Shown here piece after piece: positions 11,258 to 62,567 of a stretch of 64,000 nt of DNA; position 1 is the first letter of the stretch, and every line of letters starts with the position of its first letter. The stretch is from NCBI RefSeq assembly GCF_003665095.1, contig NZ_RCHV01000002.1, positions 2,117,501 through 2,181,500 of the forward strand, written 5' to 3'. Position numbers and translations under genes: made by a program. Source of the stretch: Streptomyces sp. Z26 (GTDB taxonomy: Bacteria; Actinomycetota; Actinomycetes; Streptomycetales; Streptomycetaceae). The notes below the pieces were generated by a model. That model searched no databases. It worked only from the letters and a program-made list of their open reading frames with translations, and was not told the DNA's origin.

Positions 11258-12403
11258 ATGAGCGCCGCCGGTACCGACCCGCAGTCCAGCACCGCCCCGC
11301 TTCCCGCCGGAGCCCGTACCGACGCCCCTCCGCGTTCCGGCGCGGACCTGCGGGTCGGGCTCGTCGGCTACGGACTGGCCGGGTCCGTCTTCCACGCGCC
11401 CCTGGTCACGGCGACCGAGGGGCTCGTCCTCGACACGGTCGTCACCTCGGACCCCGGACGGCAGGCCGAGGCGCGGACGGCGTACGGCGACGGACTCACC
11501 ACGGTGGCGCACGCGGACGAGCTGTTCGCCCGCGCCGACGCCCTCGACCTCGTGGTGATCGCCTCCCCGAACCGCACCCACGTACCGCTCGCCCGCCGGG
11601 CGCTCGACGCGGGCCTGCCCGTCGTCGTCGACAAGCCGCTCGCCGCCACCGCCGCGGAGGCCGACGAACTGGCCGCACTCGCGGACGCGCGCGGGCTGCT
11701 CCTCTCCGTCTTCCAGAACCGCCGCTGGGACAACGACTTCCGCACCGTCCACGCCCTCCTCGACGACGGCGCCCTCGGGGAGGTCCGGCGCTTCGAGTCG
11801 CGCTACGAGCGCTGGCGGCCCCGGCTCAAGGGCGGCTGGCGCGAGTCGGGCGACCCGGCCGAGGTCGGCGGGCTGCTGTACGACCTGGGGAGCCACCTGG
11901 TCGACCAGGCGCTGACGCTGTTCGGCCCGGCGGCGACCGTGTACGCCGAGGCGGACGTACGGCGGGAGGGCGCGGCGGCGGACGACGACACGTTCGTCGC
12001 CCTGACGCACCGCGACGGCGTCCGCTCGCACCTGTGGATGAGCGCGACCAGCGCCCAACTCGGGCCGCGCTTCCGGGTCCTGGGCAGCGCCGCCGCGTAC
12101 GTCAAACACGGCCTCGACCCGCAGGAGGCGGCGCTCCGCGCGGGCGCCCGGCCCGGCGACGACGCGCCGTGGGGCACCGAACCGGAGGCGGAGTGGGGCG
12201 CGTTGGGCTCGCTCGACGGGACCGAGCCCGTACGGACGCTGCCCGGCGACTACCCCGCGTACTACGCCGGGATCGCCACCGCCCTCCGCACCGGCACGCC
12301 CCCGCCGGTCACCGCGCGCGAGGCGGCGGCGACCCTGCGGGTGCTGGAGGCGGCCCGCACGTCGGCGGCGGAGGGCCGCACGGTCGTGCTCACGGCGAAC
12401 TGA
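11258..12403 (+). CDS. Gfo/Idh/MocA family oxidoreductase
   Basis: A 381-residue NAD(P)-dependent dehydrogenase. After a 30-residue leader comes the Rossmann start VGLVGYGLAGSVFHAP, then the conserved VVVDKPLAAT segment (the EKP motif, here DKP), then the C-terminal alpha/beta domain with a substrate-site region around GGLLYDLGSHLVDQA. Family members act on sugars, inositols and their derivatives. ATG at 11258 was chosen because it gives the family's usual N terminus; no strong ribosome site was seen, so it may be weakly translated or start a few codons away. It stands divergent from the HAD gene. Confidence 0.88.
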   Translation: MSAAGTDPQSSTAPLPAGARTDAPPRSGADLRVGLVGYGLAGSVFHAPLVTATEGLVLDTVVTSDPGRQAEARTAYGDGLTTVAHADELFARADALDLVVIASPNRTHVPLARRALDAGLPVVVDKPLAATAAEADELAALADARGLLLSVFQNRRWDNDFRTVHALLDDGALGEVRRFESRYERWRPRLKGGWRESGDPAEVGGLLYDLGSHLVDQALTLFGPAATVYAEADVRREGAAADDDTFVALTHRDGVRSHLWMSATSAQLGPRFRVLGSAAAYVKHGLDPQEAALRAGARPGDDAPWGTEPEAEWGALGSLDGTEPVRTLPGDYPAYYAGIATALRTGTPPPVTAREAAATLRVLEAARTSAAEGRTVVLTAN

Positions 12404-12416
12404 CCCCGGGCACCGC

Positions 12417-13274
12417 CTAGGCAGGTGCCAGGTGTTGGCGTTGGCGGCCCAGGCCGTCGATCTCCAGTTCCACGACGTCGCCCGGCCGCAGGTACGGCTT
12501 GGGGTCCGGGTGGCCCATGGCGACGCCCGCCGGGGTGCCGGTGTTGACGATGTCGCCGGGGTGGAGCGTCATGAACCGGCTGACGTGGCGCACCACTTCG
12601 GCCACCGGGAAGATCTGCTGGGCGGTGCTGCCGTCCTGCCTCAGTTCGCCGTTCACCCACAGCCGGAGCCGTAGTGCCTGCGGGTCGGGCACCTCGTCGG
12701 GGGTGACCAGCCAGGGGCCGAGGGGGTTGAACGTCTCGCAGTTCTTCCCCTTGTCCCACTGGCCGCCGCGTTCGAGCTGGAACTCCCGCTCGGACACGTC
12801 GTGCGCCACCGCGTACCCGGCGACGGCCGCCAGCGCCTCCTCGTCGGACTCCAGGTAGCGCGCCGTACGGCCGATCACCACCGCCAACTCCACCTCCCAG
12901 TCCGTCTTCACGCTGCCGCGCGGTACGAGCACGGTGTCGTACGGGCCGACGACCGTGTCCGCCGCCTTGAGGAAGACGATCGGCTCGGCGGGGACGGCGG
13001 CGCCCGTCTCCCGCGCGTGGTCGTGGTAGTTGAGGCCGATGCAGACGGCCTTGCCGATCCGGGCGACGGGCGGCCCCGTGCGGAGCCCGGCCGGGTCGAG
13101 TACGGGCAGGGCGCCGGACGCGGCCGCGTCCCGTACGCGTTCCAGGGCGGCGGGGTCCGCGAGGAGCGCCCCGTCGATGTCCGGCACCACACCGGAGAGG
13201 TCGCGCAGGACCCCCGAACCGTCCAGCAGCGCGGGGCGCTCGGCGCCCGCCGTCCCGACTCGCAGCAGCTTCAA
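12417..13274 (-). CDS. Fumarylacetoacetate hydrolase (FAH) family protein
   Basis: A 285-residue metal-dependent hydrolase/isomerase of aromatic or keto-acid catabolism. Motifs: CIGLNYHDHA, then EVELAVVIG with metal-binding acidic residues, YAVAHDVSERE, and the C-terminal VNTGTPAGVAMG and PGDVVELEI. A TTG start at 13274 is proposed: it gives the family's normal start (KLLRVGT) and has GGGGAG 8 nt upstream, whereas the longer open frame upstream is low-complexity. It converges with the oxidoreductase (14 nt between stops). Homologues include 2-hydroxyhepta-2,4-diene-dioate isomerase; the exact substrate is not known. Confidence 0.9.
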   Translation of the reverse strand: MKLLRVGTAGAERPALLDGSGVLRDLSGVVPDIDGALLADPAALERVRDAAASGALPVLDPAGLRTGPPVARIGKAVCIGLNYHDHARETGAAVPAEPIVFLKAADTVVGPYDTVLVPRGSVKTDWEVELAVVIGRTARYLESDEEALAAVAGYAVAHDVSEREFQLERGGQWDKGKNCETFNPLGPWLVTPDEVPDPQALRLRLWVNGELRQDGSTAQQIFPVAEVVRHVSRFMTLHPGDIVNTGTPAGVAMGHPDPKPYLRPGDVVELEIDGLGRQRQHLAPA

Positions 13275-13643
13275 CTGACTCTCCCCTGTCGTGCGCACGC
13301 CGTCGCGGGCGTGGGCGTGGGCGCGATGGGGACGGCCATCGACACGAATCGGACGATCGTCCAGGAGCGGGGGCGGACCCGCAACCCCGTGTTCACGACG
13401 TGGGACCGGGCCCGGGAGCGACGTCCGCACGGGGCACGGAAACGGCCCCCGCGCGCGGGGAAAACGGTGCCCCTCCGCACGGAGAACCGTGCCCCTCCGC
13501 ACGGAAACCGGTATCCCTCCGCACGGAGAACGGCGTCCCTCCGACGAGAAGTCGCCCTCCGCGCGCGCGGAGAGCGGAAAGCCCCCGCGCGCCTACGGCG
13601 TCGTCCCCCGCGCGGTGTGCGGAACGCCACTGCGGACTGCGCC
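13275..13643. other. Intergenic region between DUF445 gene and FAH gene, holding the 22-bp array
   Basis: No gene was found in this 369-bp stretch; frames that stay open here run through the repeat array and have no family likeness. The part next to the FAH gene presumably carries its promoter, which I could not place. The periodic array is listed separately. Confidence 0.55.
13449..13558. repeat. 22-bp tandem repeat array with internal dyads
   Basis: Units beginning CCCTCC start at 13471, 13493, 13515 and 13537, exactly 22 bp apart. A more degenerate copy precedes them at 13449 and a partial one follows at 13555. The first and third core units contain the dyad CTCCGCACGGAG (5-bp arms, 2-bp centre) and the second differs at its last base. 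22 bp is not a multiple of three, so the array is not coding. It lies 175-285 bp upstream of the FAH gene on the minus strand. Confidence 0.75.
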
Positions 13644-15086
13644 TCACGCGCCGAGCAGGTGTGCCACCGTGTGGATGGTCAGCCCCGCCAGCGCGCCCAC
13701 CACCGTGCCGTTGATCCGGATGAACTGGAGGTCACGACCGATGTTCGCCTCGATCTTGCGGGACGTCAGCTCGGCGTCCCACCCGGCGACGGTCTCCGTG
13801 ATGAGCGAGGTGATCTCGTTCCGGTAGGTCGTCACCACGTACACCGCGGCGCCCTCGATCCAGCCGTCGACCTTGCCCTGGAGGCGGTCGTCCTCGGCCA
13901 TCCGGCGGCCCAGCGACAGCAGCGACGCCCGCGCCCGTACGCGCAGTTCGCTCCGCTCGTCCTCCGCCGCGGCGACCATCATGGCGCGCACCGAGGACCA
14001 GGCGGAGGCGATGAGGTCCTGCACCTCGGCGCGTCCGAGCACCTCCCGCTTCAGCCGCTCGACGCGCTCCCGCGTCGCCGGGTCGGACCGCAGGTCGCGG
14101 GCGAAGTCGGCCAGGAAACGGTCCACGGCGCCGCGCGCCGGGTGCTGCGGCATGTCGCGCATCTCGGTGACGAAGCGCAGGAGTTCGCGGTAGACGCGGT
14201 CGCCGACGCGCCGGTCCACGAAGCGCGGCGTCCAGCCCGGCGCCCCACCCGTGACGGCCTCCATCACGGAGTCGCCGTGCAGTTCCAGCCATTCGACGGC
14301 CCGTACGCACACCAGGTCCACGATCCGGCGGTGCCCGCCGTCCGCGACGATCTTCTCCAGCATCGTGCCCAGCCCCGGCGCGATCTCCTGCGCGTCGGCC
14401 CGCCGGGTGATGGCCTCACCGACGACGGCCTGCACGTCGGAGTCGCGCAGTACGGTCAGGGCGCCCCGCAGCGCGGTCGCCAGCTCCTCCGTGACGCGGT
14501 CGGCGTGGTCCGGCTCGCCCAGCCACGTGCCGAGTCGGCCGCTGATGCCGACGGCGCGCAGCCGGTCCCGTACGACCTGCTGCGAGAGGAAGTTCTCCCC
14601 GACGAAGTCACCGAGGCTCCGGCCCAGTTGGTCCTTCTTGGACGGGATGATCGCCGTGTGCGGGATGGGCAGCCCCAGCGGCCGCCGGAAGAGCGCCGTC
14701 ACCGCGAACCAGTCGGCGAGCGCGCCGACCATGCCCGCCTCGGCCGCGGCGGCCACATAGCCCGCCCAGGCCCCGGCGCCCGACTTCTCCGCCCACGTGG
14801 CGAGCGCGAAGACCACCGCCATCGCGATCAGCGCCCCGGTGGCGATGGCCTTCATCCGGCGTACGCCGCGCTGCTTCGCCCGGTCCGCCGCCGTGAAGCC
14901 GCCGAGACCGCCGCCGGGCCCGGGACCACCGCCCGCGGCGCCGCCGCCCGGACCGGCACCCGGCCCCGGCCCGGCAGCCCCGCCCGTACCGGCGCCACCG
15001 CCCGCGTCCGCCCCGGCACCGCCTGTGAGTGCCCTCACACGCCCCCGTCCCACCACGGCGCTTTCACCGGATTCCGTACGTTCCAT
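13644..15086 (-). CDS. DUF445 family membrane protein
   Basis: A 480-residue protein. An N-terminal Gly/Ala/Pro-rich tract of about 50 residues precedes the conserved part, which begins near GVRRMKAIATGALIAMAVVF (membrane segment). Next comes the family hallmark of a Gly-Ala-Asp-Trp-Phe-Ala core (ADWFAVTALFRRPLG, then PHTAIIPSKKD). A long helical region and a C-terminal membrane segment (FIRINGTVVGALAGL) complete it. DUF445 (YheB/YjiN) proteins are of unknown function, possibly in envelope maintenance. The ATG at 15086 has AGGTGGAG just upstream and was preferred over an in-frame ATG at 15128. Confidence 0.85.
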   Translation of the reverse strand: MERTESGESAVVGRGRVRALTGGAGADAGGGAGTGGAAGPGPGAGPGGGAAGGGPGPGGGLGGFTAADRAKQRGVRRMKAIATGALIAMAVVFALATWAEKSGAGAWAGYVAAAAEAGMVGALADWFAVTALFRRPLGLPIPHTAIIPSKKDQLGRSLGDFVGENFLSQQVVRDRLRAVGISGRLGTWLGEPDHADRVTEELATALRGALTVLRDSDVQAVVGEAITRRADAQEIAPGLGTMLEKIVADGGHRRIVDLVCVRAVEWLELHGDSVMEAVTGGAPGWTPRFVDRRVGDRVYRELLRFVTEMRDMPQHPARGAVDRFLADFARDLRSDPATRERVERLKREVLGRAEVQDLIASAWSSVRAMMVAAAEDERSELRVRARASLLSLGRRMAEDDRLQGKVDGWIEGAAVYVVTTYRNEITSLITETVAGWDAELTSRKIEANIGRDLQFIRINGTVVGALAGLTIHTVAHLLGA

Positions 15087-15259
15087 CCGCTCCACCTGTC
15101 CGGACCGACCCTTACCCCATTGTCCCAATCCGCTCCCCGGAGGGAACGCTCGACGCCGCCCTCGCGTCTGTGCGTGCGAGGCGCGGCCCCACCCGTGGGA
15201 TCATGGACGCCGATCACTCGGAGCCACGGGCTCCGTCTGCCCGAGGAGAGTCACCGCGC

Positions 15260-16603
15260 ATGACCAGGAACATGGGTTATGCCCTGCTGGCCGGACTGGC
15301 CGCCGTACTGGTGCTGATCTCGACCGCGATACTCATCGGGGCCGGGACCGGCAGGGACGACACGGACGCCACGCCGCCACCCCGCAATCCCGCCGACCCC
15401 GCCGGTTCCGGCACCTGGGTCGGTTCCTGGAGCTCACCCGCCACCGGGGCGGAGCCGCTCAACCCGCGCCGGGGCCGCGCCACGATCGACCCGACGTCGC
15501 GGGAGGGCACCCCCGAGACGACCGTACGGAACGTGGTGCACACCTCCGTCGGCGGCACCCGCGCGCGCGTGCGGCTCTCCAACCTGTACGGCACCAGCGC
15601 GCTGACCGTGTCGCACGCCACGCTCGCGCTCGCCGCCGCGCCCAGCAACCCGACGGCCGCCGCGGGCAGCATGCGCGCGCTCACGTTCGGCGCGAAGCGG
15701 GACATCGTGATCCCCGCAGGGGGTGAGGTGACCAGCGACGCGGTACGGCTCAACGTGCCGTCCGCCGCCGACGTGCTGGTCAGCGTCTACACCCCGGACC
15801 CGGCGGGCGCGGTGACCCACCACTCGTACGCCCGCCAGACCAGCTACGCCTCCCGCGGCGACCAGGCGGCGGACGTGGCGGGCACCGCGTACACCGAGCA
15901 GGTGCCGTACTGGCGTTACGTCACCGGCCTCGACGTCTGGAGCACCGAGGCCGAGGGCTCGGTCGTGGTGATGGGCGACTCCCTCACCGACGGCGTCTCC
16001 TCCAGCCCCGGCGCGAACCGCCGTTGGACGGACTTCCTCGCGGAGCGGCTGCGCACCGAGCCGGACGCGCCGCGCTACAGCGTGCTGAACAGCGGCATCA
16101 GCGGAAACCGCATCCTCGCGGGCGGCACCACCAGCCCGCCGTGGAACAACCCCAGCGGCCTGTCCCGGATGAAGCGCGACGCGCTGTCGCAGAGCGGCGT
16201 GAAGGCCGTCATCGTCGAGATGGGCCTGAACGACCTGCTGCGCACGCCCCGTCAGCGCGACCCCGACAAGATCGTGCGGGGCCTGCGGGACCTGGTGCGG
16301 CAGGCGCACGCGCAGGGCGTACGCGTCATCGGCGGCACCCTCACACCGTTCGGGCGGCACCGGGGCTACGGCACCGAGGTCGACGCCGTACGGCACCGGG
16401 TGAACGAGCAGATCCGGTCCGGCAAGGTCTTCGACGCGGTCGTGGACTTCGACGCGGCGCTGCGCGACCCGGCGCACCCGGAGCGGCTGCGTACGGCGTA
16501 CGACTCGGGCGACCACCTGCACCCGAGCGACAACGGCTACCGCGCGATGTCCGAGGCCCTCGACCTGAAGGTGCTGCGGGGCGCCGCCGCCGCGAAGCTC
16601 TGA
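15260..16603 (+). CDS. SGNH/GDSL hydrolase, membrane-anchored or secreted
   Basis: A 447-residue esterase/lipase-type enzyme acting outside the cell. Residues 5-30 form a signal anchor (YALLAGLAAVLVLISTAIL). After a Pro-rich linker and an N-terminal beta domain of about 180 residues, the SGNH blocks appear: GDSLTDGV (catalytic Ser), ISGNRIL (oxyanion Gly), EMGLNDLL (Asn) and the C-terminal DHLHPSDNGY (Asp and His). Length and two-domain layout fit Streptomyces extracellular GDSL proteins related to rhamnogalacturonan acetylesterase-like lipases. The ATG at 15260 follows GAGGAGAG. Substrate unknown. Confidence 0.9.
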   Translation: MTRNMGYALLAGLAAVLVLISTAILIGAGTGRDDTDATPPPRNPADPAGSGTWVGSWSSPATGAEPLNPRRGRATIDPTSREGTPETTVRNVVHTSVGGTRARVRLSNLYGTSALTVSHATLALAAAPSNPTAAAGSMRALTFGAKRDIVIPAGGEVTSDAVRLNVPSAADVLVSVYTPDPAGAVTHHSYARQTSYASRGDQAADVAGTAYTEQVPYWRYVTGLDVWSTEAEGSVVVMGDSLTDGVSSSPGANRRWTDFLAERLRTEPDAPRYSVLNSGISGNRILAGGTTSPPWNNPSGLSRMKRDALSQSGVKAVIVEMGLNDLLRTPRQRDPDKIVRGLRDLVRQAHAQGVRVIGGTLTPFGRHRGYGTEVDAVRHRVNEQIRSGKVFDAVVDFDAALRDPAHPERLRTAYDSGDHLHPSDNGYRAMSEALDLKVLRGAAAAKL

Positions 16604-60013: not shown

Positions 60014-61486
60014 CTACCGCGCGAAGCGCGTGCCCAGCTCCGCGCCCGGCTCCGGCGCGCCCAACTCCCCCGGCCCGAACGACCGTACGCCCGCCGTCGA
60101 CAGGCCACCGGTCGTACCGCGCAGCACCCACGCCGCGCCCGTGTCGGTGAAGCCGTTGCCGTCCTCGCCCGGCGTACCGATCCCCAGGTCGCGCCGCCCG
60201 TCGCCGTCCGCGTCCTGGAGCGACACGGCGCTGCCGAAGTAGTCGTTCTTCTCCGCGACGCCCGGCACCCCGGCCGTCGACTGGTGGAACGCCTGCGCGC
60301 CCTTGCCGCTCAGCCCGGCCTTCGCGCCCTTCAGCAGCACGATCGCGCCGGTTTCCTTCTGCCCGGCCTCCAGGTCCTCGTGCGGGACGCCGACCGCGAT
60401 GTCCGCGATCCCGTCGCCGTTCACGTCCCCGGCGGAGAGGGAGTAGCCGAACTGGTCGCCGTCCTCGTTCGCCCCGGGCACGCCCGCGCTGTTCTGGTCG
60501 ATCTTCGCGGTACGGGTGCTGAGGCCGTCCTTCGACCCGTAGATCACCTTCAGCGTCCCGTGGTCGTACGGCAGGTTCTCCACCACGCCGCCCGGCACCG
60601 TACGGATGACCAGGTCGCCGTAGCGGTCGCCGTCCACGTCGCCGACGGTCGCGGACGCGGCCGCGTCGAACGGCGTCGACTTGTCCGCGAGGCCGTCCTT
60701 CCCGCCCTTCCAGAACAGGCTGCGCTCCGACATCTCCTCGAACGCGTGCGTGCTGACCAGGTCGTCGGCGCCGTCCCCGGTTACGTCGCCCGCGACCAGG
60801 TCGACCGGCCCGAAGATCTTGTCCGTGGTCAGGTCGCTCGTCCGCGCCGCGTGCCCGTCGCGCGTGAACGGCCCGTACAGCACGCGCATGCCGACCGTGT
60901 CCTCGTCGTCGGGGTCCCCGGCGACGAGGTCGGCGTGGCCGTCGCCGTCGAAGTCGCCGCCCACGAGGTCGTTGCCGTCCGTACGGAGGTCGGCCGCCAG
61001 CTCCGTACCGCCCGTCAGGCCCTCGGCGGAGCCCCACACCACGGTGACGTTCTCGGAGTTGGGGTCCTGCACCGCGAGGTCCGTACGGCCGTCGCCGTCG
61101 AGGTCGCGGGCGACGGAACGGTAGCCCCACCACGCCTGCGCGGCCGGGTCGCCCGGCACGCCGTCCGTGGCCTGGCTGACCACCTGGCGGTGGCCGGTGT
61201 CGGCGCTCGCGGGCGAGCCGTACACCACGGCCACGTAACCGGCCTCCGCCTTGCCCGCGACGGTGGCGGCGGGGGCGGTGAGCAGCTGGTCCGCGTAGCC
61301 GTCGCCGTTGAAGTCCGCGTCGGGCGCGACCCCGGCGGGCTGCGCGCCCGCCCGTGCGGGGGCGTCCGGCGCGGCGGGCGCGCCCGGCGCCGCGCCGGCC
61401 GTGTCGACCGCGAGGGCCGACGCGGCGGCCAGCAGTACGGCGAGCCCGGCGGAACGGGCGATCCTCGCGTTCGGTCGATGGCGCAT
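60014..61486 (-). CDS. Secreted FG-GAP (integrin-alpha-like) repeat protein
   Basis: A 490-residue secreted beta-propeller protein. The signal peptide ([25 protein letters not shown]) ends near TAGA. About seven repeats follow, each with a calcium loop such as [54 protein letters not shown] and DADGDGRRD. The blades likely form one propeller. Such proteins bind ligands or surfaces; there is no enzyme motif. A perfect terminator follows. It is divergent from a hexapeptide acetyltransferase. Confidence 0.9.
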
Positions 61487-61919
61487 GTCTCTCCCGTGGA
61501 GTGAGGTCCGGGCGGCGCCACCCGCGGCGTGGTCGGCGCGCGGGGTGGCGGTGGGGCCGAAGGGCTGGGCGGCGCCCGGAGTTGGTGGCGGGTTCGTCTT
61601 TCGTCCACCCAGCCAGACAGACGACCGCGGCCGATGGTTGTGCGCCGGGGCGCGACCCGTACGCGGGGGCGCCGGGGCGGAGGCGGGGGCGCTGCGCCCG
61701 GCGCCGGGGCGGAGGCGGGAGCGCTGCGCCCGGCACCGGGGCGGAGGCGGGAGCGCTGCGCCCGGCACCGGGGCGGGGGCGCCGGAAACCCGGGGGCGCC
61801 GGGGAGCGGCCGGTGGCATGATCGACGCCGCCCGCGCACCACCCGCCCGCGCGCCGTGCGCCGCCCGGCCCGTACCGCGTCCCCCTACCCCGTACCTCCG
61901 CCGAAAGGGCCCGCCCGCC
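61487..61919. other. Divergent intergenic region with the 32-bp repeat array
   Basis: This 433-bp stretch separates the FG-GAP and acetyltransferase genes. The part near 61690-61784 is a tandem repeat. No clear promoter was found on either side. Confidence 0.45.
61689..61784. repeat. 32-bp tandem repeat array
   Basis: Units starting GCGCTGCGCCCGGC begin at 61689, 61721 and 61753, exactly 32 bp apart; the second and third are almost identical. A partial copy precedes them (61670-61688). 32 is not a multiple of three, so it is not a coding repeat. Confidence 0.85.
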
Positions 61920-62567
61920 ATGCCCCGTGTCCCCGCCGACCCGACCGTCCTGCACCCGTTCCCCGACCAGCCGCGCGTGGTGCTGCTGAGACCGCTGGTG
62001 ACCTCGGAACTGATCGAGGTCGGCGAGTTCACGTACTACGACGACCCCGACCACCCCACCGCGTTCGAGACCCGGAACGTCCTCTACCACTACGGCCCCG
62101 AGAAGCTCCGCATCGGCCGGTTCTGCGCCCTCGGCACGGGCGTCCGGTTCCTGATGAACGGCGCCAACCACCGTATGGACGGCCCCTCCACGTTCCCGTT
62201 CCCCATCATGGGCGGGTCCTGGGGCGAACACTTCGACCTGATCACCGGGCTGCCGGGCCGGGGCGACACCGTCGTGGGCAACGACGTGTGGTTCGGGCAC
62301 GGCGCCACCGTCATGCCCGGCGTACGGATCGGGCACGGCGCCGTCGTCGCGGCGGGCTCCGTCGTCGTGGACGACGTCCCGGACTACGGCGTCGTCGGCG
62401 GCAACCCGGCCAAGCTGATCCGCCGCCGCTTCGACGACGACACCGTCGCCCGGCTGCTGGCCGTCGCCTGGTGGGACTGGCCGCTGGACCACCTCACCGA
62501 GCACCTGCGCGCGGTCATGTCCGGCACCCCCGCCGACCTGGAACGCCTCGCGCCGCCGCCCCGCTGA
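61920..62567 (+). CDS. Hexapeptide-repeat acetyltransferase (Vat/xenobiotic type)
   Basis: A 215-residue left-handed beta-helix acyltransferase. The family marks are [39 protein letters not shown], the active-site His in NGANHRMDG, and the hexapeptide strip [32 protein letters not shown] (seen as consecutive hexads), then [14 protein letters not shown]. Relatives include the streptogramin A acetyltransferases (Vat) and chloramphenicol CatB, but chromosomal forms may act on sugars. ATG at 61920 gives the normal length; longer frames are chance. It converges with galM, with 1 nt between stop codons. Confidence 0.88.

Follow-up and report, generated by a model that had tools for sequence, protein, structure and literature searches.

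A 22-bp array between the DUF445 and FAH-family genes of Streptomyces sp. Z26 appears to be one copy of a palindrome-centred family of site clusters

Between a DUF445 gene and an FAH-family gene of Streptomyces sp. Z26 lies a gap of 369 bp with a tandem array inside it. The locus raises the question of what this array belongs to, the FAH-family gene, to which an earlier note had linked it, or something not confined to this place. The window is the whole stretch of 64,000 nucleotides that was analysed, and all positions are given in its coordinates (Table 1). According to gene calls from codon usage the gap is intergenic, so the non-coding location given in the earlier note holds.

TRF reported a tandem array with a period of 22 bp at 13459-13550/13562. 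The word CCCTCCG occurs in it four times with a spacing of exactly 22 bp (at 13471, 13493, 13515 and 13537), and a further CCCTCCG, 18 bp beyond 13537, merges into the 16-bp palindrome CTCCGCGCGCGCGGAG. The longest run of equally spaced 7-mers in 1000 dinucleotide shuffles of 13275-13643 was three (in 4 shuffles) and a run of four was never reached, which confirms that the array exists. Some details proposed earlier had to be corrected. Four units of the dyad CTCCGCACGGAG was too strong a description, as two dyads are perfect, a third has one mismatch and the fourth has lost one half. An array does lie at 13449-13558, but its real extent is larger and takes in the palindromes at both ends. The placement of all dyads on the same face of the DNA is approximate, because 22 bp drifts by 34 degrees per unit at 10.5 bp per turn. 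The array is one-sided, with units only on the FAH side of the core palindrome. The stop of DUF445 and the core are 71 nt apart, the core's centre is about 290 bp from the FAH start, and the array is as much 3′ of DUF445 as 5′ of FAH. Searches against Rfam gave no family match with E up to 1 in 12300-15300. Elsewhere in the window, a near-perfect tandem array with a period of 32 bp (61668-61781, 3.6 copies, 96 % matches) sits in the gap between the called genes 60014-61486 (-) and 61920-62567 (+).

Table 1. Positions of the genes, units and palindromes at the DUF445-FAH locus in the window
Feature	Position	Strand	Evidence or remark
FAA_hydrolase (FAH family) gene	12417..13274	-	PF01557, E 6.9e-72; TTG start; downstream neighbour of the array
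Outermost 14-bp palindrome CCCCGCGCGCGGGG	13447..13460	.	sequence; far end of the array, on the FAH side
Unit 1 (22 bp), fourth half-site outward, +88 from core	13471..13492	-	perfect dyad CTCCGCACGGAG at 13473-13484
Unit 2 (22 bp), third half-site outward, +66	13493..13514	-	dyad at 13495-13506 with one mismatch (CTCCGCACGGAA)
Unit 3 (22 bp), second half-site outward, +44	13515..13536	-	perfect dyad at 13517-13528
Unit 4 (18 bp), first half-site outward, +22	13537..13554	-	dyad from 13539 (CTCCGACGAG), right half lost
Core palindrome CTCCGCGCGCGCGGAG, 16 bp	13557..13572	.	centre 13564/13565; signature of the genome-wide family
DUF445 gene	13644..14855	-	PF04286, E 2.1e-116; upstream neighbour of the array

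When the 401 bp around the array were compared with the genome itself, 15 matches were recovered, its own place included. The palindrome CTCCGCGCGCGCGGAG with up to one mismatch has 68 copies in the 6.5-Mb genome (reversed control 1), and 29 of its copies are exact. We sampled 392 genomes of the genus, this one included; 38 of the 391 others hold an exact copy, with a maximum of two in each. A whole-genome pattern of the core plus an outward half-site gave 33 matches in this genome (2 for the reversed control) and no more than 2 in any of 394 others, 28 of which have at least one. Among the matches listed, the gap between core and half-site (6-16 allowed) was 14-16 in 9 of the 10 own matches but in only 6 of the 29 foreign ones. 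Judged by sequence comparison, the core family is limited to this genome within the sample, and the window array belongs, as one copy, to a family of site clusters that are centred on the palindrome and dispersed over this chromosome. No description of this palindrome family was met in the full-text literature searched (one library).

A plasmid or phage origin was considered and rejected, as similar DNA was found in neither the plasmid nor the phage collection. The 18-mer CTCCGCGCGCGCGGAGGG (L308, 5471-5488) is present in one viral contig of IMG/VR. The word CCGTACGG is also strongly enriched here, in coding and intergenic DNA alike: it occurs 0.63 times per kb, whereas samples from two further genomes of the genus have 0.10 and 0.14 (CGTACG 2.89 times per kb, compared to 1.12 and 1.19 in the same two).

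The surroundings of the cores were surveyed in 80 stretches of the genome (69 of 20 kb, 2 of 19 kb and 9 of 8 kb). Genes were called by an in-house codon-usage script, not by an established caller, and 15 % of the 1.42-Mb grid was intergenic. The survey contained 40 intergenic and 65 coding cores CCGCGCGCGCGG, or 39 and 65 after dropping those less than 160 bp from the end of a stretch. Eleven stretches (L188-L198) and 15 loci of the search with up to one mismatch were chosen for holding the palindrome, L002 as a match to the 401-bp query and L218 for holding an array, and four grid stretches (L217, L263, L264 and L287) had copies known beforehand. The word GGAGGG, which we then counted, was chosen after viewing the copies and the P values below are conditional on that choice.

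Within 8-150 bp around the 39 intergenic cores, GGAGGG points outward 53 times and inward 15 times. The periodogram of the outward words has its peak at 22.0 bp with a power of 23.5 (20.0 without the window; 95 % of the null 6.2), a height that none of 2000 random sets reached, and the inward word gives no peak. At the first step (20-27 bp), 20 outward GGAGGG were counted in 37 intergenic cores where 0.5 is expected per 8-bp stretch; this set leaves out the window and L218, which was chosen for its array, and the 20 matches represent 18 arms, two of them counted twice. The later outward places of the same cores hold 6 (43-49 bp), 4 (65-71 bp) and 3 (87-93 bp) words, with 3, 2 and 2 in the gaps, and inward GGAGGG at the same four places amounts to 2, 1, 1 and 0. 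Among 92 other intergenic hairpins of the genome, we found one outward and one inward word at 18-28 bp.

How far the ladder extends depends on the loci counted. A pattern of three CCCTCCG, in which spacings of 17-27 bp were allowed, recovered arrays at five loci, the window included (12 matches in total, reversed control 1; two irregular ones at further places were set aside). Without these five loci there are still 17 first-step matches in 35 cores and a peak at 21.75 bp (P 0.0015 against random positions), and the later places have 3, 2 and 1 matches compared to 3, 2 and 2 in the gaps. Only the first step then clearly stands out, and it carries the 21.75-bp peak; so it is a general feature, and the longer ladder belongs to the five arrays. 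The 12 intergenic cores of the grid outside the window gave 5 first-step matches and 2, 1 and 1 at the later places; the 8 intergenic cores from grid stretches without previously known copies gave 2 at the first step, 1 at the second and 1 in a gap. Seventeen of the 39 intergenic cores have such a half-site no more than 28 bp away, on both sides in 4 and on one side in 13. Coding cores show a smaller excess, with 5 first-step matches in 63 cores and no 22-bp peak.

The four other arrays have their CCCTCCG words about 22 bp apart (18-23 bp), so the phasing of about 22 bp noted in the window recurs beyond it, both there and as the first step at other cores. What the arrays have in common is CCCTCCG, mostly as CCCTCCGC, which is half of the palindrome. 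The dyad CTCCGCACGGAG, which had been taken for the core unit, was dropped as the unit since it is absent from the other arrays listed and the 27-base pattern of the window unit matched here only; the common unit is the outward half-site GCGGAGGG. At the level of sequence, the core family, the outward orientation, the first step and the arrays at five loci were demonstrated. KOPS are signals oriented along the replichores, and a KOPS-like role was rejected, as the counts of GGAGGG and CCCTCC have no consistent switch along the chromosome.

Two further properties of the copies bear on their nature. The spacers beside the half-site have an identity between loci of 0.317 and 0.331 in register and 0.25-0.37 out of register (24 sequences, with 5 of 16 shifted values above the in-register value), and they are not clearly alike from locus to locus. 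What recurs is the half-site, its orientation and the distance of the first step, without the spacers, and this speaks for recognition more than for recent copying. The intergenic cores, on the other hand, often extend into complementary arms of up to 26 bp that are specific to each locus. In the 40 intergenic cores the arms pair more than in shuffled pairings from offset one to offset eleven outside the 12-bp core; selection of many loci by the 16-bp palindrome inflates the first two of these values.

Our best reading, which we hold tentatively, is that the family may constitute a lineage-specific binding platform for a putative DNA-binding protein, and that the window array would be one branch of it. 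The core CTCCGCGCGCGCGGAG comprises two half-sites of the GCGGAGGG type back to back, on which the putative lineage-specific protein could load as a dimer. Many intergenic copies have a further outward half-site about 22 bp, or two helical turns, from the centre, usually on a single side; at the five array loci, this one among them, half-sites continue outward in steps near 22 bp. Along these phased half-sites the protein might extend outward and form small nucleoprotein arrays at many places of the chromosome. Its place here would be the DUF445-FAH gap, and the FAH-family gene would be affected, if at all, as a member of a global set. Protein binding, its cooperativity and the role of a platform are what we infer.

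Several observations weigh against the platform. The locus-specific complementary arms are needed by hairpins, not by a platform. The first-step half-site is present at only 17 of 39 intergenic cores, 13 of them one-sided; the 8 cores in grid stretches without prior-known copies have just 2 first-step matches, and the coding cores have 5 in 63 and lack the 22-bp peak. The steps beyond the first depend on five loci, for which reason we weighed the platform lower and both the dispersed repeat and the hairpins, discussed below, higher; these loci came from a search limited to steps of 17-27 bp. Within the window array the units resemble one another closely enough for local tandem duplication, and the spacer test that favours recognition has 24 sequences, with 5 of 16 shifted values exceeding the in-register one.

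The competing possibility, doubtful but to be taken seriously, is a dispersed palindromic repeat without host function, similar to REP/BIME or the Rickettsia palindromic elements. It would have spread, or have been generated by slippage and template switching, and would be tolerated in the DNA between genes and, where it is read in the SARAE frame, within the linkers of proteins. According to the codon-usage gene calls, the 29 exact 16-mers are divided into 18 intergenic and 11 coding copies, and in the grid the 12-bp core has 14 intergenic and 34 coding copies, corresponding to a 2.3-fold enrichment between genes. In favour of a repeat, 14 of 16 copies of TCCGCGCGCGCGGA in coding DNA encode SARA(E/D), among them those in a germacradienol/geosmin synthase, a MurJ-family protein, a histidine kinase and a VanZ protein, and several in-gene copies fall in linkers, loops or tails. 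At L137, 14 residues around the copy are gapped in the alignments with the three solved structures shown, two of which are variants of one protein, and for the gene of the MurJ family (L194) 28 of 29 relatives have a shorter version of the 70-residue segment that surrounds the copy. These two cases suggest in-frame insertion relative to the orthologues. At L287 and L134 a second SARR appears seven codons further on, which fits a half-site step of 21 bp.

A repeat would also agree with the confinement of the family to one genome in our samples, with a window array that resembles the product of tandem duplication, and with the fact that the steps beyond the first are carried by the five array loci. 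However, no Y1 transposase of the RAYT/IS200 type was found: PF01797 had no match in the genome, given as 94.8 % complete, and is present in 5 of 14 control genomes. The spread of REP-like copies by a RAYT was rejected on this ground. The spacers also lack the similarity expected of recently copied DNA, and copying alone leaves the outward orientation and the first-step distance over dissimilar spacers unexplained.

The platform reading can be widened into a chromosome-wide addressing system acquired by the lineage, with CTCCGCGCGCGCGGAG as the palindromic loading site and half-sites stepping outward by about 22 bp, on which a putative undescribed protein would nucleate at the core and polymerise in two-turn steps, the sites being tolerated in proteins as SARAE linkers. 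In this full form we consider it unlikely.

Hairpins at gene ends, acting as bidirectional terminators or stabilising the mRNA, are in our judgement unlikely to explain the family. The tip of such hairpins would have been fixed as (CG)4-5 in the lineage and the half-sites would be broken outer stems. The excess of arm complementarity over shuffled pairings at the first eleven offsets in the 40 intergenic cores is what hairpins should give, and the placement of the elements may lean the same way. Among 30 strong intergenic elements (arm of at least 9 or a first-step half-site), 8 are flanked by convergent genes, an arrangement that accounts for 11 % of the intergenic length (binomial P 0.013). 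Co-directional genes flank 16 and, by the codon-usage calls, divergent genes 6, and 11 of the 16 co-directional ones are closer to the 3′ end of the upstream gene (P 0.11). The window core follows the DUF445 stop by 71 nt, and both strands of the DUF445-FAH locus fold better than shuffles (z -2.3 and -2.9). The six divergent elements, which include the arrays at L193 and L264, speak against hairpins, as do the phased words missing from the 92 other hairpins and the first-step half-sites, most of which are one-sided and so have no mirror partner to pair with. A scan with a terminator consensus found no T-run after a GC hairpin at the DUF445-FAH locus, hence no U-tract terminator, although terminators of Streptomyces may be without a T-run. 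A conserved terminator 3′ of DUF445 was considered separately and rejected, as the 29 relatives have other hairpins there with perfect stems of 4-12.

An operator private to the FAH-family gene, suggested by the array in the 369-bp gap upstream of it and by units two helical turns apart, was rejected as highly improbable, since the palindrome has 29 copies in the genome and the core-plus-half-site pattern 33, the FAH-family gene stands next to DUF445 in just 2 of 29 relatives' loci (blastn, about 1.5 kb of flank), and the best matches in the relatives leave the array uncovered among the matches listed; the array was not found conserved upstream of FAH orthologues.

Returning to the platform, the common orientation and the two-turn first step over dissimilar spacers point to a recognising protein, which could be retrieved with one probe. 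Of the several hundred genomes sampled, this one alone has the family in abundance. If the platform is true, it would show the origin of a new genome-wide DNA address within one bacterial genus, and the in-frame copies in proteins would be a by-product. If the elements are functionless, they are still a family of palindromic repeats with an unusual oriented architecture and with no RAYT-type transposase detected.

The REP, BIME and REPIN elements of E. coli and Pseudomonas are described as short palindromic cores that share a consensus over many copies and sometimes stand in ordered clusters (PMC12306157, PMC3116915), and some repeat families are biased to the 3′ ends of genes (PMC1590033). 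The family described here resembles them as a short palindrome in multiple copies with a common consensus (29 exact, 68 with up to one mismatch). It differs in that REP are extragenic and seldom overlap with genes, whereas 11 of 29 exact 16-mers and 34 of 48 12-bp cores of the grid are coding here, in that a Y1/RAYT-type transposase was not found in this genome, and in the outward half-sites at about 22 bp with spacers without clear similarity. Membership among REP/REPIN fails on two of these features, the common coding copies and the Y1/RAYT transposase not found in the genome. The Rickettsia palindromic elements are palindromes inserted in frame within unrelated proteins. The copies here are likewise read in frame inside unrelated proteins, but it is mainly a core of 14-16 bp that recurs in the coding copies, and their insertion relative to orthologues is putative.

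The string of the core palindrome also lies within a CRISPR repeat of Paraburkholderia zhejiangensis that is listed with type I-E-like cas genes, namely cas1, cas2, cas6e and cas8e (PMC5968390). This is probably a coincidence; the copies of the family are single or about 22 bp apart. In the conjugation of Streptomyces, TraB recognises 8-bp repeats at clt and, less often, clt sequences in the chromosome (PMC5365140), a possible parallel to the family described here. The nearest known mechanism is that of BldC in Streptomyces, which binds cooperatively to a variable number of direct repeats, AT-rich and 9 bp in length (AATTNNNN(C); PMC5859096). Direct repeats in variable number are common to both, a cooperative oligomer is proposed for this family too, and the unit is a different one, here the GC-rich GCGGAGGG at 22 bp around a palindromic core.
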